DNA of 64,000 nt from Phormidesmis priestleyi BC1401 (GTDB lineage: Bacteria; Cyanobacteriota; Cyanobacteriia; Leptolyngbyales; Leptolyngbyaceae): contig NZ_LXYR01000015.1 in assembly GCF_001650195.1 (NCBI RefSeq), forward strand, positions 1 to 64,000. The letters run 5' to 3'. Both the position numbers and the translations under genes were made by a program. The notes under the pieces were generated by a model. It was not told the origin of the DNA, made no database searches, and saw only the letters and a program-made list of their open reading frames with translations. Shown in pieces: positions 3,768 to 56,213 of the stretch; position 1 is the stretch's first letter; each line of letters starts with the position of its first letter.

Positions 3768-3863
3768 AGAGTTGCGGATTCCTTGTTAGAGTCTAGTGAG
3801 TTTTATGATTTGCAGATAGTTTAAGCGATATTCGCATGGTTGAGATCGCTCTCACAGAGCATT

Positions 3864-4196
3864 CTAACGCTCTGGCTCCTCGGTGAATGACCGTTCTCGA
3901 TCGCTCTCAGTTGCCCGTCCATTCACGTTGCCTAGCTGGTGTCGCACATCGTCGATCGCATCATTGAGTTGAGCAATCTTATCTTCTAGGCTGCGTCGAG
4001 ACAGCTCCATATTCTGCTCGGTCGCGCCACGAAGCGATCGCTTCTTTTTACCGTCTTCAGGCTTTAACAGGGATTCTTCGGTCGCACCTTCAAGCCGTTG
4101 AGCCGTCAATAGAGATCCTAATACGCCTCCAATCACACTGCCCACGATCGCGCCCAGAACAAAACCACCAGAAAAATTATCTTGTTGACTCATCAC
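3864..4196 (-). CDS. YtxH-like conserved cyanobacterial protein with glycine-rich membrane segment
   Basis: 110 aa. Residues 9-32 (GGFVLGAIVGSVIGGVLGSL) form a glycine-zipper-like hydrophobic helix near the N-terminus. The rest is charged and predicted helical (RRSLEDKIAQLNDAIDDVRHQL, about 66-87), probably a short coiled coil. This layout resembles YtxH-domain proteins. The role is unknown. The gene lies between the YggT-family gene and upp, all on the minus strand. Confidence 0.75.
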   Translation of the reverse strand: MMSQQDNFSGGFVLGAIVGSVIGGVLGSLLTAQRLEGATEESLLKPEDGKKKRSLRGATEQNMELSRRSLEDKIAQLNDAIDDVRHQLGNVNGRATESDRERSFTEEPER

Positions 4197-4275
4197 TCAT
4201 CATGCTCACTTTAACTGAGTCTCACTTCCAGCTTAACGCCGTTCGATCAAAACGATAACTCGATTCACCTCAGAA

Positions 4276-4926
4276 TTAGGTGCCAAACGTGCGATCGCCC
4301 GCATCGCCCAACCCTGGAACGATGAAGCCTTTTTCGTTTAGCCCTTCGTCGATCGCCGCCGTATAAATATTCAAGCCGGGATAGGCAACACTCAGTTTTT
4401 GCAGCGCTGGAGGTGCCGCCACAACTGCCACAATTCTCACCAGTGCGGGATCGACCCCTCTTTTGGTCAATTCTTCCATCGCCGCGATCGTGGTTCCTCC
4501 CGTCGCCAGCATTGGGTCGGTAATCAACACATGGGTTTGCGGACTGATCTGGTCAGGAAGACGATTGAGGTAACAACTCGCCTCTAAAGTTTCCTCATTT
4601 CGCACAAGTCCAAGGTGATAAATCGAGGCTAAAGGCAGAATCCCTTGCGCTCCATCCAGCAGGGCGAGTCCGGCGCGAAGAATCGGAACCACCACGATCG
4701 GCACTTCGGGATTAATAAACGTCGCGGGACAAGGTGACAGCGGAGTCTCGATCGTGGTTTCAACCGTCGGAAGCCATTCACGAATCGCCTCGTAGGTGAG
4801 CCATCGCCCCAACTCAGTCATAGCGCTGCGAAAGAGCGCGGAAGGAGTCGCCGCATCACGGGCTACGCCCAACCAGTGTTTGATCAGGGGATGAGGCGGA
4901 ACGTAGACACGCAGTTGAAGAGTCAT
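4276..4926 (-). CDS. upp: Uracil phosphoribosyltransferase
   Basis: 216 aa, normal length. Converts uracil + PRPP to UMP (pyrimidine salvage). The PRPP-binding loop is ITDPMLATGGTTIAAMEEL (about residues 135-153). The uracil-binding C-terminus is GFIVPGLGDAGDRTFGT. The conserved VVPILRAGLALLDG block is at about 77-90. Start ATG 4926 fits the family N-terminus (MTLQLRVYVPPHPLIKHW). It is the first minus-strand gene left of a 500-bp intergenic region. Confidence 0.96.
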   Translation of the reverse strand: MTLQLRVYVPPHPLIKHWLGVARDAATPSALFRSAMTELGRWLTYEAIREWLPTVETTIETPLSPCPATFINPEVPIVVVPILRAGLALLDGAQGILPLASIYHLGLVRNEETLEASCYLNRLPDQISPQTHVLITDPMLATGGTTIAAMEELTKRGVDPALVRIVAVVAAPPALQKLSVAYPGLNIYTAAIDEGLNEKGFIVPGLGDAGDRTFGT

Positions 4927-5086
4927 AAGCGATCGAGCACCCGCAGCAGGTCAAAAGTTTGAACCATCATACTCTCTTCCTGTCTCTGTTTCAGGTAATC
5001 TCGGCAGGTTGCAGGTAAAAAGATTCTACTAACTCTGGTGAACAGGACTTCTCTAAAAGTCTGTTGAGATTTACTTGCAATAGTAT

Positions 5087-5116
5087 TGACAATAGTTCTC
5101 AACTAATTCTATAGTG
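5087..5116 (+). promoter_or_regulatory. Sigma70-type promoter
   Basis: TTGACA (5087-5092) and TATAGT (5111-5116) are separated by 18 bp, close to consensus. Transcription would start near 5122, directly in front of a hairpin-plus-T-run, and 300 bp before the serpin gene. Confidence 0.6.
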
Positions 5117-5121
5117 CTCTG

Positions 5122-5191
5122 TAGTGTTCTCCTCTCTAGAGGAATCGGCAGAAGGGGTCAGGCGGCAATTGCAGGCTAGTCCCCTTTTTTG
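5122..5191 (+). ncRNA. Candidate small RNA of about 70 nt (not a known family)
   Basis: Between the promoter at 5087-5116 and a T-run at 5186-5191 lies a short segment with a first small stem (CCTCT-ct-AGAGG, 5132-5143) and a GGGG...CCCC pairing (5155-5158 with 5182-5185) directly before TTTTTT. No reading frame fits inside. It could be a free sRNA or an attenuated leader of the serpin gene. I do not match it to Yfr1, Yfr2 or 6S RNA. Confidence 0.4.
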
Positions 5192-5279
5192 TTTGTGTGA
5201 AGCCGTCTTTTACCTGGATTTCACTTGAGGCGATGAGCGATCGCATTTTTTGCAGAGTTGGAGATGCCAAAGCTCACAC

Positions 5280-5369
5280 TCAAATTCTCGTCTCCCAGTC
5301 CTCAATCTGCAACTCCTCAATCCGCTCAAATTCTCGCGTGTTGTGCGTCACCAAAACCGTAACAAACCT
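5280..5369 (-). pseudogene. Remnant of a VapC-type PIN-domain toxin (C-terminal end)
   Basis: The minus strand reads VTVLVTHNTREFERIEELQI then EDWETRI and stop (codons 5363 down to 5280). This matches the typical VapC C-terminus (VTxNTREFxRVxGLxxEDW). Upstream the frame loses similarity and no start, antitoxin gene or catalytic N-terminal Asp is present. It is a fragment left in the upp/serpin intergenic region. Confidence 0.7.
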
Positions 5370-5432
5370 GACCGGAAATTGTAGATGCACTAGCGTAGCG
5401 AGTAGAGAGAAGATATTTGGTAGAACGTCACG

Positions 5433-6704
5433 ATGAGCAAATTTTTATTCGCCCGAATTAGCATCGCACTCTTAGCCGCGATCGTCACTTTAACGTCAGT
5501 TAGCTGCTCAGGTGCGGCAAGCTCAAACTTAAATCCGAAGCCGTCTCAGACCACTACAAAACCCGCTGCCCTTAAAATCGTGGTCAATTCCAAGCTTGTC
5601 GAGGCGAATACTCGTTTTAGCTTCAAACTGTTCTCAGAAATTCTTAAGCAAGACGGCAAAAAGAATGTGTTTGTGTCGCCTTCGAGTGTCGCGATCGCGC
5701 TTTCTATGGCGTATAACGGTGCCAAAGGTGAGACCCAGCAAGCGATCGCTAAAGCGCTGGAAATGCAGGGAATGAGCCTGTCAGACATCAATCAATCAAA
5801 CGCCAATCTCAAAACCAGTCTCGAAAGCAGTGACCCAGCCGTGCAGTTGACGATCGCCAATTCGCTTTGGGCAAGAAAGGGCGTTGACTTCAAGCCAGAA
5901 TTTATTCAACGAAATCAAGCGTTTTACGCCGCCGAAGTGACATCACTCGACTTTGCCGACCCGTCAGCCCCTACTCAAATTAACGGCTGGGTGAAAAAAA
6001 ATACGCAGGGCAAAATTAGCGAGATCGTCGATGATATTGATGCCGATCAGGTGATGTTTTTGATCAACGCCATCTATTTCAAAGGCAAATGGATGAATGA
6101 GTTTGATAAGAGCCAGACCGCTGATCAGCCGTTCACCCTAGCAGATGGTCGCCAAAAACAGCACCCGATGATGTCGCAAAGAGGCGATTATCGCTACACC
6201 GAAAATCAGCAGTTTCAAGCGGTGAGTCTCCCCTACGGCAAAGGGCGCACCAGTTTATATGTATTCCTACCAAAGCCAAACTCCAATCTTGCAGACTTTC
6301 AAAAAACGCTGACGGCTGAAAATTGGCAAACCTGGATGAAAACTTTCAGTAAGCGAGAAGGCTCGATTCAACTTCCGCGCTTCAAAATGGAGTATGAAAT
6401 CCAACTTAAAAAATCGCTCTCAGCCTTGGGAATGGGCATCGCGTTCGACCCCTTAAAAGCAGATTTTTCCAATCTCAGCGAAACTTCAACTCGCATTGAT
6501 GAAGTCAAACACAAAACCTTTGTCGAAGTGAACGAAGAAGGCACCGAAGCCGCCGCCGTCACCTCGATCGGGATTCGCGCTACATCTGCTCAAATGGAGG
6601 TTGCACCATTTTCGATGACGGTCGATCGTCCTTTTTTCTGCGCGATTCGAGACAACAAAACGGGCGAAATTTTATTTATGGGTGCGATCGTCAATCCAGC
6701 TTAA
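5433..6704 (+). CDS. Serpin (serine-protease inhibitor), probable lipoprotein
   Basis: 423 aa. A signal peptide with hydrophobic core at residues 10-22 ends in SVSC with Cys25, a possible lipobox, so the protein is probably exported and membrane-anchored. The serpin fold follows (NVFVSPSSVAIALSMAYNGA, ANSLWARKG, INAIYFKGKWMNEF, VSLPYGKGRTSLYVFLPK). The reactive-centre hinge is EEGTEAAAVTS at residues 368-378, with the small-residue pattern of inhibitory serpins. The C-terminal DRPFFCAIRDNKTGEILFMG block is intact. The target protease is unknown. The gene stands alone downstream of a candidate sRNA. Confidence 0.95.
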   Translation: MSKFLFARISIALLAAIVTLTSVSCSGAASSNLNPKPSQTTTKPAALKIVVNSKLVEANTRFSFKLFSEILKQDGKKNVFVSPSSVAIALSMAYNGAKGETQQAIAKALEMQGMSLSDINQSNANLKTSLESSDPAVQLTIANSLWARKGVDFKPEFIQRNQAFYAAEVTSLDFADPSAPTQINGWVKKNTQGKISEIVDDIDADQVMFLINAIYFKGKWMNEFDKSQTADQPFTLADGRQKQHPMMSQRGDYRYTENQQFQAVSLPYGKGRTSLYVFLPKPNSNLADFQKTLTAENWQTWMKTFSKREGSIQLPRFKMEYEIQLKKSLSALGMGIAFDPLKADFSNLSETSTRIDEVKHKTFVEVNEEGTEAAAVTSIGIRATSAQMEVAPFSMTVDRPFFCAIRDNKTGEILFMGAIVNPA

Positions 6705-44877: not shown

Positions 44878-47502
44878 TTAATGAGTGGTCAACACTTCAG
44901 ACGGCAAGCGTCGAAACTCCAATCGCTCCGTTTCGCCCACGTCAACAAAGATCGTGTCACCTTCGTTAAACTCACCTCGCAGAATCAACTTAGCGATTTG
45001 AGTCTCTAACTCACGCTGAATCGCACGCTTGAGCGGACGCGCCCCAAACACAGGGTCAAAGCCCACCTCAGCTAAGAAATCTAGCGCCGAGTCAGACAAC
45101 TTGAGCGACATCTTACGATCGGACAACCGCTTCTCAAGTCGCTGCACTTGCAGTTTGACAATCTCACGCAACTCAGCCTTGTTGAGACTGTGGAAGATGA
45201 TGATTTCATCAATGCGGTTGAGAAACTCAGGACGGAAGCTCGATCGCATCGCATCCATGACGCGCGATCGCATTTCTTCATATTGAGTGTCATCACCCGC
45301 CAGATCCAAGATATATTGCGACCCGATATTGCTGGTCATGATGATGATGGAGTTTTTAAAGTCCACCGTGCGACCCTGCGAGTCAGTAACGCGCCCATCG
45401 TCCAAAATTTGCAGCATGACGTTAAACACATCAGGATGCGCTTTCTCGATTTCGTCAAACAAAATCACCGAGAACGGACGACGACGAACCGCTTCAGTCA
45501 ACTGTCCGCCTTCTTCATAGCCGACATATCCCGGAGGCGCACCGATTAGACGAGAGACTGCGTGCTTCTCCATATACTCAGACATATCGATTCGCACCAT
45601 CGATTCTTCGGTGTCGAAAAGATAGACGGCAAGGGCTTTTGCGAGTTCGGTTTTGCCGACACCTGTGGGACCTAAGAAGATGAAGCTTGCGGTCGGTCGA
45701 TTGGGGTCAGCCAATCCAGCACGCGATCGCTGAATGGCATCTGCCACTGCCGTCACCGCCTCGTCTTGACCCACCACGCGGTTGTGCAACTCATCTTCTA
45801 GATGCAGCAGCTTTTGCATTTCCGACTGCACCAGTTTACTGAGCGGAATGCCCGTCCACTTCGAGATGATTTCGGCAATGTCAGCCTCGGTGACTTCTTT
45901 ACGCAGCAGAGACGTACCACTCTTTTGATTTTGAGCCAGGTTGGCTTCTGCTTCTTGAAGTCGGCGGTTGAGATCGGTCAGGGTGCCATACTTCAATTCA
46001 GCCGCTTTGCTGAGATCATAATCGCGTTCTGCCTGCTGGACTTCGAGATTGACTTGATCGATCTCTTCTTTTAGCTCACTAAACTGAGCAATTACCTTTT
46101 TTTCCGCTTGCCATTGGGCATTGAGAAGGCTTTGCTCCTCTTTCAAATCCGCCAGTTCTCGCTCTAAGCGATCGGAGCGGTCGCGCGATGCCGGATCGGT
46201 TTCTTTTTGTAGAGACAACCGCTCCATTTCCAATTGCAGAATCTTGCGATCGACCTCATCGAGTTTTTCTGGTTTTGAGGTGATCCCAATATTCAGCTTG
46301 GCAGCGGCTTCGTCTACCAGGTCGATCGCTTTGTCGGGGAGGAAGCGATCGCTGATATATCTCGCTGAAAGAGTCGCGGCGGCAACCAGGGCGCTATCAG
46401 AAATTGTCACCTTGTGGTGAACTTCGTAGCGCTCTTTTAACCCGCGCAAAATCGAAACGGTATCTTCAACACTGGGCTGATCGACAAAGACCTGTTGAAA
46501 TCGACGCTCTAATGCGGCATCTTTTTCAATGTACTTGCGATATTCATCCAGCGTAGTTGCCCCAATGCAGCGCAGTTCGCCCCGCGCCAACATTGGCTTG
46601 AGCAGGTTTCCGGCATCCATTGCGCCTTGAGTCGCCCCTGCACCCACAACGGTATGAATTTCGTCAATAAACAGAACGATTTGACCTTTAGAGTCAGTCA
46701 CTTCTTTGAGAACCGCTTTCAGCCGTTCCTCAAATTCGCCGCGATATTTGGCACCTGCAATCAGAGCGCCCATATCTAGCGCGATCAGTTTGCGATCTTT
46801 CAACGACTGCGGCACGTCTCCACTGAGAATCCGCTGTGCTAGTCCTTCCGCGATCGCCGTTTTACCCACGCCAGGTTCACCAATCAGAACCGGATTATTC
46901 TTCGTCCGACGCGAGAGAATTTGAATCGTGCGGCGAATCTCATCATCGCGCCCGATTACAGGATCTAACTTGCCTTGACGAGCGTATTCTGTCAGATCTC
47001 GTCCATATTTTTCGAGTGATTCGTACTTGCCTTCTGGGTTTTGATCCGTCACCTTTTGACTCCCTCGTATCTGTTCGATCGCTGATTTAAGCTTAGGTTC
47101 GTCGAGTTTAAATTCTGCAAATAGCCCTTTGCCAAATCGATCATCTTTTGCATAGCCCAGCAGCATATGCTCGATCGAGATGAATTCGTCCCCGAATTGT
47201 TTACGGTAATTTTCGGCTCGATCGAACAGCGTATCCAAACTGCGACCGAGATAAACCGATCCGCCGCTGCCAGAGATCTTGGGCTGACGGCTGATAAACT
47301 CATCGGTGCGATCGCGCAGTTTTTGCACATTAATGCCGAGCTTGTTAAAGACGCTGGTGGCTAACCCATCTTGCTCAATCAAGGCGCGCATCAGGTGTTC
47401 GCTTTCGATTTGCTGATGGTTATATTGTTTGGCAATTTCTGGGGTACGAACGATCGCTTCCCAGGCTTTTTCGGTAAATTGATTGGGGTTGGTTGGCTGC
47501 AT
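44878..47502 (-). CDS. clpB: ATP-dependent disaggregase ClpB
   Basis: 874 aa, normal length. N-terminal Clp-repeat domain ([20 protein letters not shown]), NBD1 with Walker [10 protein letters not shown] and [12 protein letters not shown], the long coiled-coil middle domain (about 410-520, rich in Glu/Lys) that distinguishes ClpB from ClpC, and NBD2 with [15 protein letters not shown] and [14 protein letters not shown]. It resolves aggregated proteins with DnaK after heat stress. The C-terminal [18 protein letters not shown] is intact. Single gene with a terminator. Confidence 0.97.
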
Positions 47503-47649
47503 TGGTTCCCCCTCTACATCTCATATCGGTTGATCTTAATACAGCCATTGTAGAGAAGTCAGCCGATTCTGAAAGGTCGGTGTTCACCCCTCTTTGATGC
47601 GTATTGCCGAATTGCGACCCGTTTTAGTCCTGAATTCAAGGCGATCGCT

Positions 47650-48237
47650 CTAAATTTCTCGGCGAAAAGCTCTAATCGCTGCTCCAGTGTCAGTCTCAGC
47701 CATCAAGATACAACGTCGCAGCAAATCTAGATCGAGGTCATTGAGTCCAGGTAGCTGACTGCGATCGATCGGTTCATAAGTGTCATCTTGAAGACGGTAA
47801 AGCTTCAGCACCCGATCTTCCCAAAACCAGACTTCAGGCACACCCAACGCTTTGTAGCGCTCTAGCTTACTGATGCCACCGCTTGTAAAGACGACTTCAA
47901 TGGATAAATCTGGGATGGTCTTGGCGCTCTCAATGCAGTAGGACTCATCTGCTTGAGCCGAAACTACCCCTTCTTTTTCCTGTGTCATTGCTCCTGTTGG
48001 CTGAAAGAAAATACCTTTCTCAGTCAGGAAGGTGGTCACTAAGTAACCAATCAGCCGCGAAAAGATTTCGTGTTCGCGTCCCGGCATAAGCACCTCGATC
48101 GCGCCCTCATAGTAGGACAGTCGTACGCCAGGAGATCCATCAAAGCCCTTTTGAATGAACTTAAACTGTTCCCAAGTGCCACTATGGACGATGCGTTGGT
48201 CAGTCGTTTTGTCGAGTAGTGAGGGCATTGTATTCAC
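47650..48237 (-). CDS. Uma2-family (DUF820) PD-(D/E)XK protein
   Basis: 195 aa from GTG 48237; ATG 48228 (MPSLLDKTTDQ) is an equally good start. Uma2 pattern: GVRLSYYEGAIEVLMPGREH, the nuclease-like core IPDLSIEVVFTSGGISKLER, YKALGVPEVWFWED, and C-terminal LPGLNDLDLDLLRRCI. This family is greatly expanded in cyanobacteria; it has a type II restriction-enzyme fold, but its target is unknown. Confidence 0.93.
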   Translation of the reverse strand: MNTMPSLLDKTTDQRIVHSGTWEQFKFIQKGFDGSPGVRLSYYEGAIEVLMPGREHEIFSRLIGYLVTTFLTEKGIFFQPTGAMTQEKEGVVSAQADESYCIESAKTIPDLSIEVVFTSGGISKLERYKALGVPEVWFWEDRVLKLYRLQDDTYEPIDRSQLPGLNDLDLDLLRRCILMAETDTGAAIRAFRREI

Positions 48238-48449
48238 CGCCAGCTAGTCCTGTTTGCATTGTGGCATATCCCTTGCCAGACTAGCGATCGCTCCTCAATG
48301 ATTGACTCAAGCGCGATCACAGCTTCTCGAATCGTCACAACCCTCACCTCTGCCAAAATCTTTGGTGCGATCGATATCAATGAGTTTGAGATTGTGACTT
48401 TATCTGAGGGCATTCTAGAGCCGTAAACCCAGACAGAGAGCAATCTACG

Positions 48450-48923
48450 ATGACCACAAATCAAATCAGTGCCACGATGACCCAGACCGATCGGGATGCG
48501 GTGTTGGCAGCCGTTGCCACAATCAAAGAGAAGCTACCGTTTTTGATGGATCTGACCCCAGAGCAGCGCAAGTCGTTGCCGAAGATGGGCGATAAGAGTC
48601 AGGCGTTTGTGAATAAGGCGTTGGAGGTGGCAACGCAGAATCCCGATTTCTTGCCGAGGTCGTTTGACCTGGAGGAGATGAAGCGGGATGTGGAGTTGTT
48701 TCAGGCGTTGTATCCGGTTTCTTTGTCGCTGACGCAGTTGCAAGAGTTGGTGGATGATACGGTGATGGCGGTGGGCAGTGATGCCTATGCAGCAGCGCTG
48801 GTGGTCTACAGCTTTGCCAAAGCCAGCGGCAAGGGTGCGGGGCTGGATGCGGTGGCGGATGAGATGGGTAAGCGGTTTGCCCGTAAGTCTCGGAAGGCAC
48901 AGTCAGAAGGAACAACGGCTTAG
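48450..48923 (+). CDS. Conserved hypothetical protein, 157 aa
   Basis: A helical soluble protein: AVATIKEKLPFLMDLTPEQR, KSLPKMGDKSQAFVNKALEV, LPRSFDLEEMKRDVELFQAL, and AYAAALVVYSFAKASGKGAG with a basic tail. The family occurs in cyanobacteria and some Bacteroidetes without known function. The frame is well coded (strong third-position G bias), so the gene is real. It lies between the Uma2 gene and the STAND island and shares a direction with the latter. Confidence 0.8.
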   Translation: MTTNQISATMTQTDRDAVLAAVATIKEKLPFLMDLTPEQRKSLPKMGDKSQAFVNKALEVATQNPDFLPRSFDLEEMKRDVELFQALYPVSLSLTQLQELVDDTVMAVGSDAYAAALVVYSFAKASGKGAGLDAVADEMGKRFARKSRKAQSEGTTA

Positions 48924-48949
48924 ACAATAGCTCAGTGATTTGACCTCAA

Positions 48950-49140
48950 AGGTCGAAAGCTGAGGCTCAGAGCTTGGATGTTGGAGCAATTTGCTCGGCA
49001 TTCCGGGTTCTGAGCTTTATTTTTGAAGCAAAAAGCCTGGGTTGGCGGGTTTAAGGGGCAAAGCTTTGGGCAAAAAGGCTGAAGTTTTGAGTTCAGAGGT
49101 TGGAAGGTGAGAGTTAGAGGTCGATCGCTGCTTGAAATAG
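48950..49140 (+). repeat. Low-complexity degenerate repeat tract (GAAGTTTGAGG-like)
   Basis: A stretch built from loose 10-11 bp words (ggctgaagttttgagttc, agaggttggaaggtgag). A similar tract in the opposite orientation lies at 53770-53990, on the other side of the STAND/toxin-like island. Confidence 0.5.
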
Positions 49141-49182
49141 CTAAAATACCCCTTGTAAGCAGGAAAATAGCTCAAAAATTAT

Positions 49183-52100
49183 ATGAGCGAATCTTCAAAA
49201 AACAAACCTGACGAATATGACTCGACCACCGACTATCACTATCTCAAATTTGAGAATCGGTGCCTCCGGGGAAATGGTGATGACTTTCAAGAAATCTTTG
49301 AAGAGATCATGGTACGGGCTAGACCCGGAGAATTTGAGCGCGTTCGTCCATATGGGAGGTTTGGTGATCGCAAGTGTGATGGTTTGATCGAATCTGAAGG
49401 TATCATTTTTCAAGTCTACTCACCAGATAAGTTAAAGCAGGCGGAAGTTCAAAAGAAGATCGATGAAGATCTTGAGGGTGCTGTTCAACATTGGAGTGAC
49501 ATTCTAAAGAAGTGGGTGTTCGTCTACAACGCTAAGCGAGGAACATCTTCAGATATCAAGCTAACGCTGCAACAAAAACAGAAACAATATCCCGACATTG
49601 AGATTGATAGCTGGAGTAATGACTATCTTTGGGAAATCACTCGTGAATTGAGTCTTCAGCAGCGATCTGAGATTCTGGGTGCCTCGCCTCAATGGAACGT
49701 TGAGAAGCCAAAGAGCAAGGCTCACATACCAAATCTACCATTTCATTTTCTAAAGCGTTCCACAGATTTGGATACGCTCAAAAACTTGGTACTTTCTAGC
49801 TCAATCCAATCTACAGGTATCACCAGAAGTACTTTAAAGGTTGGTGTGTATGGGATGGGCGGCATTGGAAAGTCTGTTTTGGCTGCAATGCTAGCGCGAG
49901 ATCCAGAAGTACGTGCCGCTTTCCCAGATGGCATATTCTGGATAACACTGGGTCAAGAACCAATTTTGGCATTAAGGCAACTTGATCTGGCGCGCATCTT
50001 GGGTGATGCTTCCCTTCCATTTCAGGATGTGCAGCAGGGTAAGATTCACCTAAGCCAGTTGTTAGGGGATAAAACGTGCCTGCTAATTTTAGATGATGTA
50101 TGGAAAGCAGATCATGTTGCTGCATTCAATATTTTGGGTGAACAGAGTGGGCTTCTGTTCACAACACGAGATAGCAGCATTGTTAAAGCACTCAATGCGT
50201 CTGAGCATCGGGTGGATCTTTTAAGTGATGATGAGGCGCTTGAATTATTGACAGCTTGTTCTGGACAGTGCCAAGAAACTCTACCGATCGAGGCGCATGA
50301 GATCGTGAAGGAATGCGGTAACTTACCGCTGGCTCTGTCTATGATTGGGGCGATCGCGAAGGCTAGACCTGATCGTTGGGATAATCTTCTGTATAAGCTC
50401 CAAAATGCTGATCTAGACAAAATTCGACACGAGTTCCCTGATTATCCCTATCCAGATTTGCTTAAAGCAATTCAGGTTAGTGTAAATGCACTAGAACCAG
50501 CAGTAAAGGTACGCTATCTCGATTTTGCAGTTTTCCTAGAAGATACCGCAATTCCTGAAACCACTTTGAGAACGTTTTGGGAACCAGAAGGACTGGATGA
50601 GTATGATACTCAGGATGTCATTGATACATTGGTGGAGCGATCTCTAGCTCGATGGGATGAAGCTGGTAATTTAACAATTCATGATCTTCAGTATGATTAT
50701 GTAAGAAAACAAAACTCTGATTCGACTGCACTTCACAACAGACTCTTAGATGCTTATGCGACTCACTGTATTAATGGATGGTATACAGGGCTAAATGATG
50801 GATATTTTTTTGAAAATCTGACTTTTCACTTAATAAAGGCGGAACGTAAAGAAGAACTTTATCGCTTACTTGTTGGATCACCGGACTGGATGGAGGCTAA
50901 ATTTATCAACTGTAGAGGTGACTCATCCTACGTTGCTGATATAAAGATGGCAATAGACGAACTCAATAACTCATCGGATGCCAGTCAACTTCTAGTTCTG
51001 GTGAGATTAAATGCTGCCCATCAAGTAGTGTATGAGCGGAGTAGTCAATACGATAATGATTATTTAGAAATTCTAGCTTGGTTGGGACGTGAGGCAGAGT
51101 CTATAAGCCATGCCCGTCTTACTCTTGATATAAACCGAAGATATATCAAACTGCTTGCAATTTATGATGCCCTGCGAAAGCGAGGGAAAGATACTTCCGC
51201 GTTGCTTGATGAACTTTGGCAAACTGCACGACTCACTCAAAACAATGGGCATGAACCTATCGATACATGGGCTTTGGGGGGAGTAGCTGTACGGTTGTAC
51301 GCTTCTGGTAGGCAAGAGGACGCTAACTTAGCTCTTGCAGAAGCCGAGGTAACCGCATTAAAACCCAATCCTGATTGGCTATATTACGTCCTGGGACAAC
51401 GAAATCCAGATAGCAGAGCAACTGATGTTCAAGCTAAAGATGAAAGCAAGATTTTTACTCGCGATTGGCTTCGAGTAGAAGCAATTAGACAATTAGCAAT
51501 AGCTTTTTCTCAATGTGGCAACAATAGCGAAGCTTTTAAAGCTCTTAAAAAAGCCAAACAGATTGCAGTTAACCTTGATGATAGCCAGCAGTCTGGCTCA
51601 TATAAAACCAAAGTACAACTGCTTGAGAGAATTGGATTATCTATGGTTAGAGCGGGCTATTTAGAAGATGCTAAATCAACTCTTCATCTAGTCATAGATG
51701 AAAGTAATTCAGCAGAAATATGGCGCAATTTAGGGCTGGAACTTAGTAAGATGCCAAGCTGTCAGATTGAAATCAAAGATGCTTTTAGGAAAGCAGAGAG
51801 ATCAATCTACAGAACAGAGGATAAGTATTTACAAGTAACTCAAATTGCATACCTGGCAGTGGCACTAATTCAAGCAGGAGAACCTTACAGAGAAAAGGCA
51901 GTTAGTAATTTCAATCAAGCACTTCTGCTTGCCGAAACATTTGACGAAGAATATCAAAAAACACAAGCTCTAAAAGCTTTAGTAAATGCTTATGCTCAAG
52001 CAGGTTACTTTATAGAGGCAAAAGAAGCTCTACAAAAAATTAACCACTACGATAAATCTTGGGCTTTGAGAGATTTAGCAGTAAAAATGGCTGCGGCAGG

Positions 52101-52911
52101 GTTCCCTGAAGCTGAGAAAACTGCACGAACAATCTCTGATAGAGATGAACAAGTAGAAGCATTAGTAGGATTAGCCCTCACTTTTGCTCGCTCAGGTAAT
52201 ATCGAAGATGCAAGTAGAATTTTTTACGAAGTTCAAGAGAAAGCTAATCCATCGTTCGCTGAGAAACATCTAGATTCTAGGCTGCTACACGATATAGCAT
52301 TAGCTTTGATTGAAGCTAAGGAGTTCTCAAAGGCTGAGAGCGTCATTGAATCTATTCATATTGATCCAGCTAACGGATATAAAATATTTCAAGGTGATGC
52401 TTGGCGCAAAATAGATGTAATGATTGAGTTTGCTTTATCACTTACTCAATCAGGTAATGCCAGAAGATCGCGACAGGCTTTTAACAATGCAGAGGATATG
52501 TTGGAAAGACTTGAGATTAAAGAAGATAAGTTAAAGCTGTATAAAAAACTAAAGCTTACATTAATTAACGCCAATTATCTAGAGGAAGCTAATAAAGTCT
52601 CTAAGAAAATCGCAAAAACGTTTAAACAGGATGTTGAAATTCGACTTTTTGTACCTGTTAACGTCTCAGATATAGAAGCGAAAGAGAAGTCTACTAGTCA
52701 ATTGCTTTTTGAGGGGAATATTAAAGAAGCCTTTTCTGAATTAGTTTGTCAAAGCTTAATTGGCTTTCTGTGCAGTCTGTCAAAAGAGGCAGCAGCCTTT
52801 GAGAGTATAGAAAAAGGGTTATCAATAGCGGTATTAAAAGAAGCGCTTTACATTGCAACTTGGAAACGCCCAAATTATCAAAAAATTTATGAACTTATAC
52901 GATCTATATAA
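49183..52911 (+). CDS. STAND NTPase with N-terminal nuclease-like domain and TPR-like solenoid
   Basis: 1242 aa. Residues 30-85 (DDFQEIFEEIMVRARPGEFE; GRFGDRKCDGLI; IIFQVYSP) match nuclease-like N-termini of bacterial conflict proteins (Mrr/Cap4-like PD-(D/E)XK). D62 and D66 are present, but the usual E-x-K is Q77-V-Y79. NB-ARC follows: Walker A GMGGIGKS (224-231), Walker B CLLILDDVW (299-307), LLFTTRDS, CGNLPLALSMIG, then a winged helix and NLTIHDLQYDYVRKQ. From about 560 to the end is a helical solenoid with TPR-like units (IRQLAIAFSQCGNNSEAFKA; AYAQAGYFIEAKEALQK), probably the ligand sensor. The second half is clearly more AT-rich than flanking genes, suggesting transfer. Architecture fits an Avs-like anti-phage sensor. 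Confidence 0.88.
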   Translation: MSESSKNKPDEYDSTTDYHYLKFENRCLRGNGDDFQEIFEEIMVRARPGEFERVRPYGRFGDRKCDGLIESEGIIFQVYSPDKLKQAEVQKKIDEDLEGAVQHWSDILKKWVFVYNAKRGTSSDIKLTLQQKQKQYPDIEIDSWSNDYLWEITRELSLQQRSEILGASPQWNVEKPKSKAHIPNLPFHFLKRSTDLDTLKNLVLSSSIQSTGITRSTLKVGVYGMGGIGKSVLAAMLARDPEVRAAFPDGIFWITLGQEPILALRQLDLARILGDASLPFQDVQQGKIHLSQLLGDKTCLLILDDVWKADHVAAFNILGEQSGLLFTTRDSSIVKALNASEHRVDLLSDDEALELLTACSGQCQETLPIEAHEIVKECGNLPLALSMIGAIAKARPDRWDNLLYKLQNADLDKIRHEFPDYPYPDLLKAIQVSVNALEPAVKVRYLDFAVFLEDTAIPETTLRTFWEPEGLDEYDTQDVIDTLVERSLARWDEAGNLTIHDLQYDYVRKQNSDSTALHNRLLDAYATHCINGWYTGLNDGYFFENLTFHLIKAERKEELYRLLVGSPDWMEAKFINCRGDSSYVADIKMAIDELNNSSDASQLLVLVRLNAAHQVVYERSSQYDNDYLEILAWLGREAESISHARLTLDINRRYIKLLAIYDALRKRGKDTSALLDELWQTARLTQNNGHEPIDTWALGGVAVRLYASGRQEDANLALAEAEVTALKPNPDWLYYVLGQRNPDSRATDVQAKDESKIFTRDWLRVEAIRQLAIAFSQCGNNSEAFKALKKAKQIAVNLDDSQQSGSYKTKVQLLERIGLSMVRAGYLEDAKSTLHLVIDESNSAEIWRNLGLELSKMPSCQIEIKDAFRKAERSIYRTEDKYLQVTQIAYLAVALIQAGEPYREKAVSNFNQALLLAETFDEEYQKTQALKALVNAYAQAGYFIEAKEALQKINHYDKSWALRDLAVKMAAAGFPEAEKTARTISDRDEQVEALVGLALTFARSGNIEDASRIFYEVQEKANPSFAEKHLDSRLLHDIALALIEAKEFSKAESVIESIHIDPANGYKIFQGDAWRKIDVMIEFALSLTQSGNARRSRQAFNNAEDMLERLEIKEDKLKLYKKLKLTLINANYLEEANKVSKKIAKTFKQDVEIRLFVPVNVSDIEAKEKSTSQLLFEGNIKEAFSELVCQSLIGFLCSLSKEAAAFESIEKGLSIAVLKEALYIATWKRPNYQKIYELIRSI

Positions 52912-52965
52912 AAATTTACTTTTCAAAATTGTCATTATTTATTACAAGAAATAGGAGAAATATCA

Positions 52966-53202
52966 ATGAGTAGCCCAATTATTACGAAAGTCATTGAAGA
53001 AATGAGCGACTTACCTGATGATATACAACAGCAGGTTTTAGAGTTTGTTGTGACTCTGCGACAGCAACATACACAAACAACTGGTAATGCATGGGATGTG
53101 CTGGAATCTCTCACTGGAACCGTTGAAGCCCCTGCCGATTGGTCAGCCGAACATAATCATTACCTCTACAGCACACCCAAACGCCAAAAAGCTGACTTAT
53201 GA
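52966..53202 (+). CDS. DUF2281-like small protein, probable antitoxin
   Basis: 78 aa: MSSPIITKVIEEMSDLPDDI, QQQVLEFVVTLRQQ (helical DNA-binding-like N-terminus), then a variable tail with DVLESLTGTVEAPADWSAEH. Such proteins precede toxin genes in cyanobacteria. AGGAGAAATATC lies upstream. Its stop overlaps the start of the next gene (53199-53202). Confidence 0.8.
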   Translation: MSSPIITKVIEEMSDLPDDIQQQVLEFVVTLRQQHTQTTGNAWDVLESLTGTVEAPADWSAEHNHYLYSTPKRQKADL

Positions 53203-53519
53203 GCAGCGATCGTCTATTCTTCACTGCCCAAACTCCGCTTAATTGCAGCATTCGCGTCACCGTTGCCTACTGGAACATCATCACCCAGATCAAACACCCA
53301 ATCATGAACGGGCAGGAATCAGCAGTACAGGCGACTCTAACCCAACCTAATGAAATCCGCCGCAGCCGCAGTGATCCAAATGTTTACCTGTTTTACAAAC
53401 TTCAGCGAGAAAAACGATGGCTCTGTGCCGTTATCAGACAACTCAACGGAGAAGGCTTCTTGATTACCACCTATCCCACTGATGCAGTTAAAGAAGGAGA
53501 AACGATATGGCAGAAGTGA
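53199..53519 (+). CDS. Small nuclease-like (toxin-type) protein
   Basis: 106 aa with the pattern IRVTVAYWNIITQIKHPIMN, QATLTQPNEIRRSRSDPNVY, LFYKLQREKRWLCAVIRQLN, GEGFLITTYPTDAVKEGETI. The H...R...RRSRSD...Y arrangement is like small RNase-fold toxins or phage-type PBECR nucleases. The family is common next to DUF2283 genes in cyanobacteria. Activity is inferred from context, not shown. It overlaps both neighbours (4 bp and 13 bp). Confidence 0.75.
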   Translation: MSSDRLFFTAQTPLNCSIRVTVAYWNIITQIKHPIMNGQESAVQATLTQPNEIRRSRSDPNVYLFYKLQREKRWLCAVIRQLNGEGFLITTYPTDAVKEGETIWQK

Positions 53520-53719
53520 AAGTTTATTACGATCAAGTGGGTAATACCTTAACCGTCTGGTTTGGCGATCCCCAGGATGAATACACCTCTGAAGAAACCG
53601 GAGATGAAGTGATCTTGATGAAAGATCGCAACGGGCAAGTCATCGGCTTTGAAAAACTCAACTACACCATTCCATCCACCACAAATCTCAAAATTTCCTT
53701 TGAAACGGCAAATGCATGA
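53507..53719 (+). CDS. DUF2283-family protein, probable antitoxin
   Basis: 70 aa with the family pattern VKVYYDQVGNTLTVWFGDPQ, EETGDEVILMKDRNGQVIGF, EKLNYTI. DUF2283 proteins are small beta-rich partners of toxin-like genes. Overlap with the preceding gene (13 bp) indicates translational coupling. Confidence 0.92.
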   Translation: MAEVKVYYDQVGNTLTVWFGDPQDEYTSEETGDEVILMKDRNGQVIGFEKLNYTIPSTTNLKISFETANA

Positions 53720-53769
53720 TAGTGATTCCTTCGGAGAGCTTCGCTAACGCCCTTCATCTTTCACCCGTC

Positions 53770-53990
53770 AACCTGCGATCGCCAACTTCCGACCTTTGAT
53801 CATGGAATGTTGGGTTGCGATCGCCAAACTTCGCCTTCAGAGCTTGAACATCTGCCTTTGCTATGCAACGCTTCACGAACAAACCTCGGAACTTCAACTT
53901 CGGAGCCTGAAACTTTGACCTCAAAACTTCAACCTTGAGCTTCAAAGCCTGAAACTTGAAGATCTTTACAGTTCGATCGGGTCTTAAATC
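53770..53990 (-). repeat. Low-complexity degenerate repeat tract, inverted relative to 48950-49140
   Basis: On the minus strand the words ggctttgaag, ctcaaggttgaag, ttttgaggtc and aggctccgaag recur with loose 10-11 bp spacing. The composition resembles the tract left of the island, in opposite orientation. A 91-codon frame across it (53754-54029) is a by-product of the repetition. Confidence 0.5.
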
Positions 53991-54044
53991 TGGTTTTTGG
54001 CTTTGAGTTGCAGATAGCGATCGACCCACGGTTCTGCAATATCG

Positions 54045-54380
54045 TCAGTCGGGCAAGAAGAAATCGGGCGCGTCTTCATCAATTGAGAGGGCATGGTTGC
54101 GACAATAAAGCTCTAAATCTAAGCGGCTGATCGAGCGTTCGGTCGGGTTAGAAAAGAAGGCTTTGACTCGAATATAGCGCCGCAACCCTTCTGCACTGGC
54201 ATCTTCGGCGGTCGCGTCTTTAAAGTCTTCTGGAAAGGTGTCGGTGACTTTGATCCACGCCTCTTGTAAAATCGCTTCAATTTCATCACTGGGCGATGAG
54301 TCGAGCAGGTCTTCAAGCCCTTCTAGAACGTCGATCGCTTTCAATATTTGCGGAGTAATTTCTGAACTGGAATTAGCCAT
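54045..54380 (-). CDS. Conserved hypothetical acidic protein, 111 aa
   Basis: Acidic, helical: ITPQILKAIDVLEGLEDLLD, SSPSDEIEAILQEAWIKVTD, TFPEDFKDATAEDASAEGLR, RYIRVKAFFSN, DLELYCRNHALSIDED. Looks like a cyanobacterium-specific small protein. No function can be given. Single gene with a normal start (ATG 54380). Confidence 0.7.
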   Translation of the reverse strand: MANSSSEITPQILKAIDVLEGLEDLLDSSPSDEIEAILQEAWIKVTDTFPEDFKDATAEDASAEGLRRYIRVKAFFSNPTERSISRLDLELYCRNHALSIDEDAPDFFLPD

Positions 54381-54673
54381 TCACGTCAATCTCAAATGAA
54401 AACAGAGGTTAGATACCTGAGTAAGGGGCGTTCTATGATTGTATTCGATCGCAGATTCTGGCTCGATCGAGTCTGCATTCGATAAAGGTTACATTTTTAG
54501 TCACTTTGTTTCGGGCAGATCCCAAGAATTGCAATACGACTTAGTTATTGTGGGTCTGTTTGACTTTTAAATTGCGAAAGTTGCGTTTTGCGTCATAAAA
54601 GTCTAACTTTCGCCAGAGACTACTACACCAAAATGCACTAACGAGGACGCTCAGACATCAGGAGTGACCTCTC

Positions 54674-54826
54674 ATGGAACGTGTCTCGATCGATCTGATG
54701 ATGCCGTTAATGCCTGATCTGAGCACGATTCGCACACTGCGGCGCACCAATCCCAATCTTGAAGTAGTAGCAATGTTAATCCACACAGCCACCAATCAAC
54801 GATCGAGAGCCGCCATTGATGCTTGA
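54674..54826 (+). pseudogene. Response-regulator receiver fragment (50 codons)
   Basis: ATG 54674, preceded by AGGAG, to TGA 54824. The peptide MERVSIDLMMPLMPDLSTIR then TLRRTNPNLEVVAM resembles the phospho-acceptor region of receiver domains (DLMMPxMDGxxTIRTLRRxNPxLxVIAM), including the Asp of IDLMMP. The rest of the receiver domain and any output domain are absent. It overlaps the 3' end of the aldo/keto reductase gene. Confidence 0.5.
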
Positions 54827-55782
54827 GGATAGCGATCGCCCGCTGTCGCATTTTTAGGCGCGATCGCATCTAAGCGATCGAGGTCTTCTGAGGTCAACTT
54901 AATCTCCACGGCTGCGACATTTTCTTCTAGATAAGTGCGGCGTTTTGTCCCTGGAATGGGAGCAATATCGTCGCCCTGAGCTAGAAGCCACGCCAGCGCC
55001 AACTGTCCGGGAGTCGCGTTTTTTTGAGATGCGATCTCTTTGACGCGATCGACCAGTTCGAGATTTTTATAAAAGTTTTCGCCCTGAAATCTAGGCAGAT
55101 TTTTACGAAAATCATCGGCGGCAAAATCATCGGGGCTAGTAATCTGTCCTGAGAGAAAGCCGCGACCCATCGGACTGTAGGGCACAAACCCGATTCCTAA
55201 TTCGCGAATTGTGGGGAGAATTTCATCTTCGGGTTCACGAGTCCAGAGCGAATATTCTGACTGAAGGGCAGAGATGGGATGGACGACATGAGCGCGACGA
55301 ATCGTGTTCGCAGCCGCTTCTGACAGCCCCAAATAGCGCACTTTGCCTTTGTGGACGAGTTCTGCCATTGCCCCGATCGTGTCTTCGATCGCGACGTTGG
55401 GATCGACGCGATGCTGATAATACAAATCGATGTAGTCAACGTTTAAGCGTTTGAGTGACGCATCGCAGGCTTGACGCACATATTCAGGTTTGCCGTTGAT
55501 GCCGCGAGAGGCAGGATCGTCACCGCGCTGAATGCCAAATTTAGTGGCGAGAATGACGCGATCGCGCTGCCCTTTCATTGCCTTGCCGACGAGTTGCTCG
55601 TTTGCCCCAATGCCATACATATCGGCAGTGTCGAGAAAGTTAACGCCTAGCTCTAGGGCGCGATGAATGGTGGCGATCGATTCGTTCTCATCAAGGGTGC
55701 CGTAGAATTCTGACATTCCCATACAGCCGAGTCCGAGTTCTGATACCGTAAGTCCTTGGCGACCCAATGTTCGTGTTTTCAT
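54796..55782 (-). CDS. Aldo/keto reductase (AKR13-like)
   Basis: 328 aa. TIM-barrel NADPH-dependent reductase: [20 protein letters not shown], catalytic D and Y in [11 protein letters not shown] in VILATKFG and H in DLYYQHRVD, then [19 protein letters not shown] and the NADPH-binding [15 protein letters not shown] near residue 276. It reduces aldehydes; the physiological substrate is unknown. It begins 5 bp after a MerR-family reading frame that has decayed, so it belonged to a MerR-regulated operon. Confidence 0.95.
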
Positions 55783-55787
55783 GATAG

Positions 55788-56213
55788 TTAATTTCCGTTT
55801 TGAGAACTGTTTGCAAATTGATTGCGAGGGTTTCTAGTCTTTGAGTGACGCTGTTCAATTTCTTTATAGTTTTGAATCTTCTATTGAATCATCTCCAGGC
55901 TTTGAGTCAGTTCTTGAATACGTTGTTGAACTTCACGTTCGTGGGATTCCAAAAGTTCTCCACGTTCATTAAATACTTCGGGTTTTTGGCGCAGAGAAAT
56001 TGCGTGGTTTCGTACTTATCGAATTGACATCCCGGTTATTCTCGATTTTGTTAAGAATTCGATTAGAGTCATGTCGATAACTGAATAGCGTCGATGTCGA
56101 TTTGCAGCCCGATCGATTGGCTCCAAAAGTTCGTTACGCTCGCAGTAGCGGAGCGTGTAGACACTCAACCTTGTGCGTTCAGAAACCTGTTGAATCGTGA
56201 GTTCTGCATTCAT
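55788..56213 (-). pseudogene. MerR-family regulator with two in-frame stop codons
   Basis: The frame from ATG 56213 (MNAELTIQQVSERTRLSVYT, LRYCERNELLEPIDRAANRH, RRYSVIDMTLIEFLTKSRI) is a complete MerR DNA-binding domain, ending at TAA 56016-56018. The same frame continues VRNHAISLRQKPEVFNERGE, LLESHEREVQQRIQELTQSL, EMIQ, TAG (55881-55883), KIQNYKEIEQRH to TAA 55788. Without the two stops (expected Glu and Tyr) it is a normal ~141-aa regulator. It sits directly upstream of the aldo/keto reductase it would have controlled. Confidence 0.85.

Follow-up and report, generated by a model that had tools for sequence, protein, structure and literature searches.

The gene at positions 49183-52911 of the window (the whole stretch of 64,000 nucleotides from Phormidesmis priestleyi BC1401 that was analysed) probably encodes a laterally acquired, single-protein bacterial NLR, an antiviral STAND whose N-terminal effector is a PD-(D/E)XK-like nuclease with K92 as the likely catalytic lysine. 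What is new in this protein is an Apaf-1-like bacterial NLR carrying a PD-(D/E)XK-like effector of the Q-x-Y type that is common to CBASS and Lamassu-type systems.

Gene and domain architecture

The reading frame is intact on the forward strand, starting at an ATG and specifying 1242 amino acids (ORF list and translation). Promoter and terminator scans gave no excess over shuffled sequence. The protein has three parts: an N-terminal domain of about 170 residues, an NB-ARC switch that continues into winged-helix and helical domains of the Apaf-1 type (together residues 220-613), and TPR repeats. Pfam matched NB-ARC at residues 220-435, APAF1_C at 515-613 and TPR_12 (E 1.5e-5), and the Apaf-1 winged helix at 443-506 scored below the curated cut-off (Table 1). 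The C-terminal repeat matches are of the TPR/PPR type, the best of them at residues 992-1053. The nearest PDB sequence is Apaf-1, aligned over residues 220-573, followed by plant NLRs and AfsR. The P-loop GMGGIGKS at residue 224, LLILDDVW at 300, LPLAL at 381 and the MHD-like IHD at 499 are all intact, and the protein has every element of an NLR-like switch: P-loop, Walker B, GLPL-like and MHD-like motifs and a winged helix. An earlier note on this DNA, made from the letters alone, had proposed the same STAND/TPR architecture.

Table 1. Features of the STAND gene and its flanks (window coordinates)
Feature	Position	Strand	Basis
157-aa gene, repeatedly found 5' of defence genes in this cyanobacterial family	48450-48923	+	neighbourhood comparison
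5' flank common to L072 (85-89%) and L074 (72%)	48380..49035	+	
N-terminal PD-(D/E)XK-like effector domain (putative), residues ~1-170	49183..49692	+	relatives with other C-terminal partners, 52-62% identity; model and Foldseek
GDRKCDG, residues 61-67 (D62 and D66, motif II; K64)	49363..49383	+	D62, D66, G67 28/28; K64 25/28
FQVYSP, residues 76-81, motif III strand; Y79 at canonical Lys position	49408..49425	+	Q77 26/28, Y79 27/28, P81 28/28
K92, candidate migrated catalytic Lys, motif IV helix	49456..49458	+	invariant 28/28; model helix 86-104
NB-ARC STAND NTPase, residues 220-435	49840..50487	+	PF00931 E 2.5e-31; Apaf-1 E 6e-43
Apaf-1-type winged helix (443-506) and helical domain (515-613)	50509..51021	+	PF21296 E 1.2e-4, PF17908 E 4e-10
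C-terminal helical/TPR region, probable sensor, AT-rich	51022..52908	+	TPR_12, TPR_14, PPR; GC3 0.27
3' flank common to L072 (83%) and L074 (76%)	52953..53222	+	antitoxin-like ORF 52966-53202 and first codons of PIN-like toxin gene

Fold of the N-terminal domain

The N-terminal domain matched no Pfam or PADLOC family, and neither single-sequence nor profile searches gave it a relative of solved structure; fold comparison alone gave matches. An AlphaFold2 model of residues 1-190, built from 13 sequences (pLDDT 84.3, pTM 0.77), has the predicted order helix-helix-strand-strand-helix-strand-helix-strand and is least certain at residues 59-61, adjoining motif II. The top Foldseek match in the PDB was EcoT38I (E 8.5e-4, prob 1.0), and further matches included FANCM, a CdiA-CT toxin, Can2, EcoO109I, XPF and Hef, all of which we take to be PD-(D/E)XK-type proteins, as well as a few unrelated structures such as a chaperonin; the TM-scores were moderate, about 0.5. 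Phage restriction endonucleases were among the top matches in a search of BFVD. The model thus points to a PD-(D/E)XK-like core, as the earlier note had predicted, and its nuclease reading stands as far as the fold is concerned.

Relatives of the N-terminal domain in other defence systems

Relatives of this domain occur in five contexts: as fusions with SAVED, with CTD10 or with another STAND ATPase, beside a NACHT ATPase, and alone in a phage. The SAVED fusions come from Xenococcus (L021), Chloroflexi (L022) and Planctomycetia (L023); Pfam recognised SAVED in the first two, and PADLOC profiles of SAVED effectors match all three. A CD-NTase gene follows L022 (PADLOC Cyclase, E 6e-70), HORMA and TRIP13 genes precede L023, and L021 adjoins JAB, E1-E2 and HNH-SAVED genes; the three loci are CBASS. 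The N-terminal end of the PDC-M68A profile matches the HNH part of the HNH-SAVED protein (L021, 7359-8534), and therefore that ABC-3C effector family, too, shares an effector with CBASS.

The fusions to CTD10 (found in L044, L038 and L042) belong to ABC-3C and are accompanied by a middle component and an SMC-like DUF2326 ATPase. They were found in cyanobacteria, on plasmids of Proteobacteria, Hymenobacter and Streptomyces, and on IMG/VR contigs. The Lamassu superfamily takes in ABC-3C (PMC10586767). In L030 the domain is fused to a different STAND ATPase with TPR and SEC-C, and in L032 it is encoded in a frame that overlaps that of an adjoining NACHT ATPase; the two frames (3785-5627) look like a frameshifted fusion gene. 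The phage relative (L047, 4977-6020) is 347 aa long and lacks a recognised C-terminal domain; its gene, between the tail and baseplate genes of a P2-like Klebsiella phage, is likely to be a phage-borne defence gene. Related domains are also present on many Klebsiella plasmids (91 records). Among cyanobacteria, a single-sequence search of 390 matched six genomes; a profile search (alignment A2) of 386 returned the present gene alone, a count that depends on the first-look filter and the sample and that we do not use.

Judged from these fusions, the N-terminal domain is a portable effector, joined to SAVED, to CTD10 or to other STAND ATPases, or standing alone in a phage. The connection to nuclease effectors of conflict systems drawn in the earlier note is borne out by these relatives in CBASS, ABC-3C/Lamassu and other STAND systems.

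An altered motif III and a candidate catalytic lysine

GDRKCDG and FQVYSP are present at residues 61 and 76, as the earlier note had read them, which places D62, K64, D66, Q77 and Y79. We aligned 28 relatives from six phyla, with pairwise identities of 20-95%. G58, G61, D62, D66, G67, P81 and K92 are invariant in this set, and the conservation of D62, D66, G67, P81 and K92 is far beyond chance. The motif II aspartate, D66, is therefore always present, while the lysine of a canonical motif III, (D/E/Q)-x-K, is absent: Y79 takes its position in all relatives except one, which has Phe, and Q77 is kept in 26. As motif I glutamate we tried E40, which is invariant in nine close relatives but present in 12 of the 28 in the wider set.

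The Q-V-Y alteration seen in the earlier note is real but not local. Across the alignment, Q-x-Y is a fixed rule of the domain family, including the CBASS and Lamassu-type effectors, rather than a lesion or decay of one copy. A pseudogene with a decayed active site was ruled out, since the reading frame is unbroken and the family as a whole has the altered motif.

From conservation and topology together, K92 most likely replaces the motif III lysine and would supply the positive charge alongside D62/D66 and Q77. In the model it sits in the helix that follows the third strand. A survey of the superfamily describes PD-(D/E)XK families that lack the motif III lysine and have a basic residue in the motif IV helix instead (PMC1913061). 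DUF506, DUF790 and DUF1626 in that survey resemble the present domain in having lost this lysine and conserved a basic residue in the next helix; in contrast to them, our domain has a motif III that starts with Gln and ends with Tyr, and it is found in the context of defence effectors.

With the motif III lysine missing and E40 not conserved, the domain could instead lack catalysis and serve to bind nucleic acid or to oligomerise, bringing in another effector, and some STAND systems do recruit effectors in trans via adaptor domains (PMC10907252). We think this rather unlikely. The inactive or binding-only class allowed for in the earlier note is disfavoured because, among the CBASS effector proteins and ABC-3C operons that we examined, no other effector domain was recognised: in the operons it holds the effector slot, alongside the middle component and ATPase alone, and in the SAVED proteins it takes the position of the nuclease. 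The strict retention of Asp and Lys at 20-30% identity also fits catalysis.

Less likely still is an enzyme that is active through D66-Q77 with K64, and not K92, standing in for the missing lysine from the adjacent strand. K64 was the replacement suggested in the earlier note; it is found in 25 of the 28 relatives and lies two residues ahead of D66, at the start of the second strand in the model. However, it is Ser in two Streptomyces sequences (L094 and L096) and Gly in the phage orphan, while D62, D66 and K92 persist in all three. With these losses K64 was demoted, and K92 is preferred because it is strictly invariant.

Domain exchange and lateral acquisition

Comparison with two STAND relatives places an exchange point between effector and switch at about residues 170-185. 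L030 has the N-terminal domain alone in common with our protein, from residue 1 to about 170, and L031 has the NB-ARC and helical part (40% over residues 189-684) with an HTH domain replacing the effector. The two alignments indicate that effector and switch have been swapped independently of each other.

The base composition of the gene (GC 0.41, GC3 0.32) differs from that of its neighbours (GC 0.49-0.55, GC3 0.50-0.68). GC3 falls from 0.43 in the N-terminal domain to 0.39 in NB-ARC and 0.27 in the TPR part, so that the second half is far more AT-rich than the flanking genes, as had been noticed earlier. This pattern suggests that parts of the gene may have different origins.

In a sister species (G001) the clpB region is 85% identical up to position 47611 of the window and is then followed by unrelated genes, and the ortholog of the aldo-keto reductase is on a separate contig. 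Both flanks of the STAND gene are matched in L072, which is from another genus, and in L074 (Table 1). Between them L072 has a restriction-modification pair and L074 a SMEK-NACHT gene. Because the same flanks enclose different genes, we take this as direct evidence of cargo exchange. Lateral acquisition of the STAND gene as exchangeable cargo between conserved flanks is supported, and with it the horizontal origin proposed in the earlier note.

A possible defence-exchange site

The 157-aa gene upstream has many copies in this cyanobacterial family (recorded in the window and in L072-L078, L082, L085, L098, L099 and L105). Among the 21 copies with 60% identity or more to that in the window, 13 have a same-strand defence gene downstream (STAND, TIR-STAND, NACHT or restriction-modification), sometimes past one short ORF, versus none of the 8 copies below 60%; the Fisher p of 0.003 is descriptive only, because the copies share ancestry and the 60% cut was picked with the data in view. 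The protein matched no Pfam or PADLOC family, and no viral relative was found. A strict association with defence was rejected, since the sole plasmid relative, on a Thiodictyon plasmid, lies in a metabolic neighbourhood and not beside a defence gene.

Degenerate short repeats at 48946-49101 and 53768-53957 bracket the STAND gene in inverted orientation and include an inverted pair of 27 nt that is 85% complementary (49075-49101 and 53910-53936). Frames adjoining other copies of the 157-aa gene (L081, L082, L098, L100 and L107) encode repetitive peptides, which suggest similar repeats there; such repeats are possible recombination anchors. Downstream, at 52966-53519, a PIN-like toxin gene reduced to its first codons comes after an antitoxin-like ORF (families judged by eye), and the toxin gene is full-length in L072 and L074.

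It is possible, if doubtful, that the STAND gene belongs to the cargo of a defence-exchange site not described before. Its constant parts would be the 157-aa gene with the degenerate repeats behind it on one side and the toxin-antitoxin remnant on the other, and STAND, restriction-modification or SMEK-NACHT genes would be swapped between them. In that case the exchange might be promoted, or the cargo regulated, by the 157-aa protein or by the repeats.

Comparison with known systems and proposed mechanism

Avs proteins with a Cap4- or Mrr-type nuclease share with our protein an N-terminal effector of nuclease fold, a STAND NTPase and C-terminal helical repeats. They differ from it in that our protein has NB-ARC with Apaf-1-type domains and an effector of another PD-(D/E)XK subfamily, with Q-x-Y. 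The comparison with Cap4 and Avs effector domains that the earlier note proposed gave no match at the level of sequence models: a PADLOC scan of the protein gave no family at E up to 1, Avs profiles included, and neither the Pfam model of the Cap4 nuclease (DUF4297) nor a Cap4-type PADLOC model matched the N-terminal domain. Apaf-1 and plant NLRs likewise have NB-ARC, a winged helix and a helical domain, but our protein ends in TPR-type repeats and not WD40 or LRR, and begins with a nuclease-like domain and not CARD, CC or TIR.

The N-terminal domains of the three SAVED proteins, which are Cap4-like CBASS effectors, are 48-57% identical to ours; activation there runs through SAVED, a domain that Pfam did not find in our protein, and not through a STAND switch. 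Identity to the N-terminal domains of the Lamassu/ABC-3C CTD10 effectors (PADLOC PDC-M68A and the LmuA profile PDLC03852) is 24-37%, and the LmuA profile matches 14 of 19 relatives. In those systems CTD10 docks to a complex with an SMC-like ATPase, whereas our protein has no docking domain: Pfam found no CTD10 in it, and no gene of the size and kind of an SMC-like ATPase was seen in the ORF list of 46000-56000.

Tripartite antiviral STANDs with N-terminal nuclease effectors trigger cell death (PMC10907252). Our protein would work like an Avs or bNACHT protein. The TPR part would sense a component of the invader, and the core of NB-ARC, winged-helix and Apaf-1 helical domains would then exchange nucleotide and oligomerise. 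This would cluster the PD-(D/E)XK-like domains, which could then cleave nucleic acid and halt the phage, probably in the manner of abortive infection. An AfsR-like STAND protein that regulates transcription or cell physiology and plays no part in phage defence is improbable, for although the NB-ARC core is common to AfsR and the closest relative of the chassis, L031, has an HTH domain where the effector would be, our protein has no HTH, its N-terminal domain is found elsewhere in CBASS, Lamassu-type and other STAND systems, and its relatives hold defence genes at this locus.

Significance

A single effector domain links four defence architectures, namely STAND/NLR, CBASS, Lamassu/ABC-3C and a phage-borne orphan, and its active site departs from the textbook motif in a way that is itself conserved. 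D66, Q77, K64 and K92 offer a clear mutational test of how the domain acts. The comparison of L030 and L031 shows that the effector and the switch of a bacterial NLR exchange independently, and the arrangement of the flanks is a place to seek further defence genes in this cyanobacterial family.
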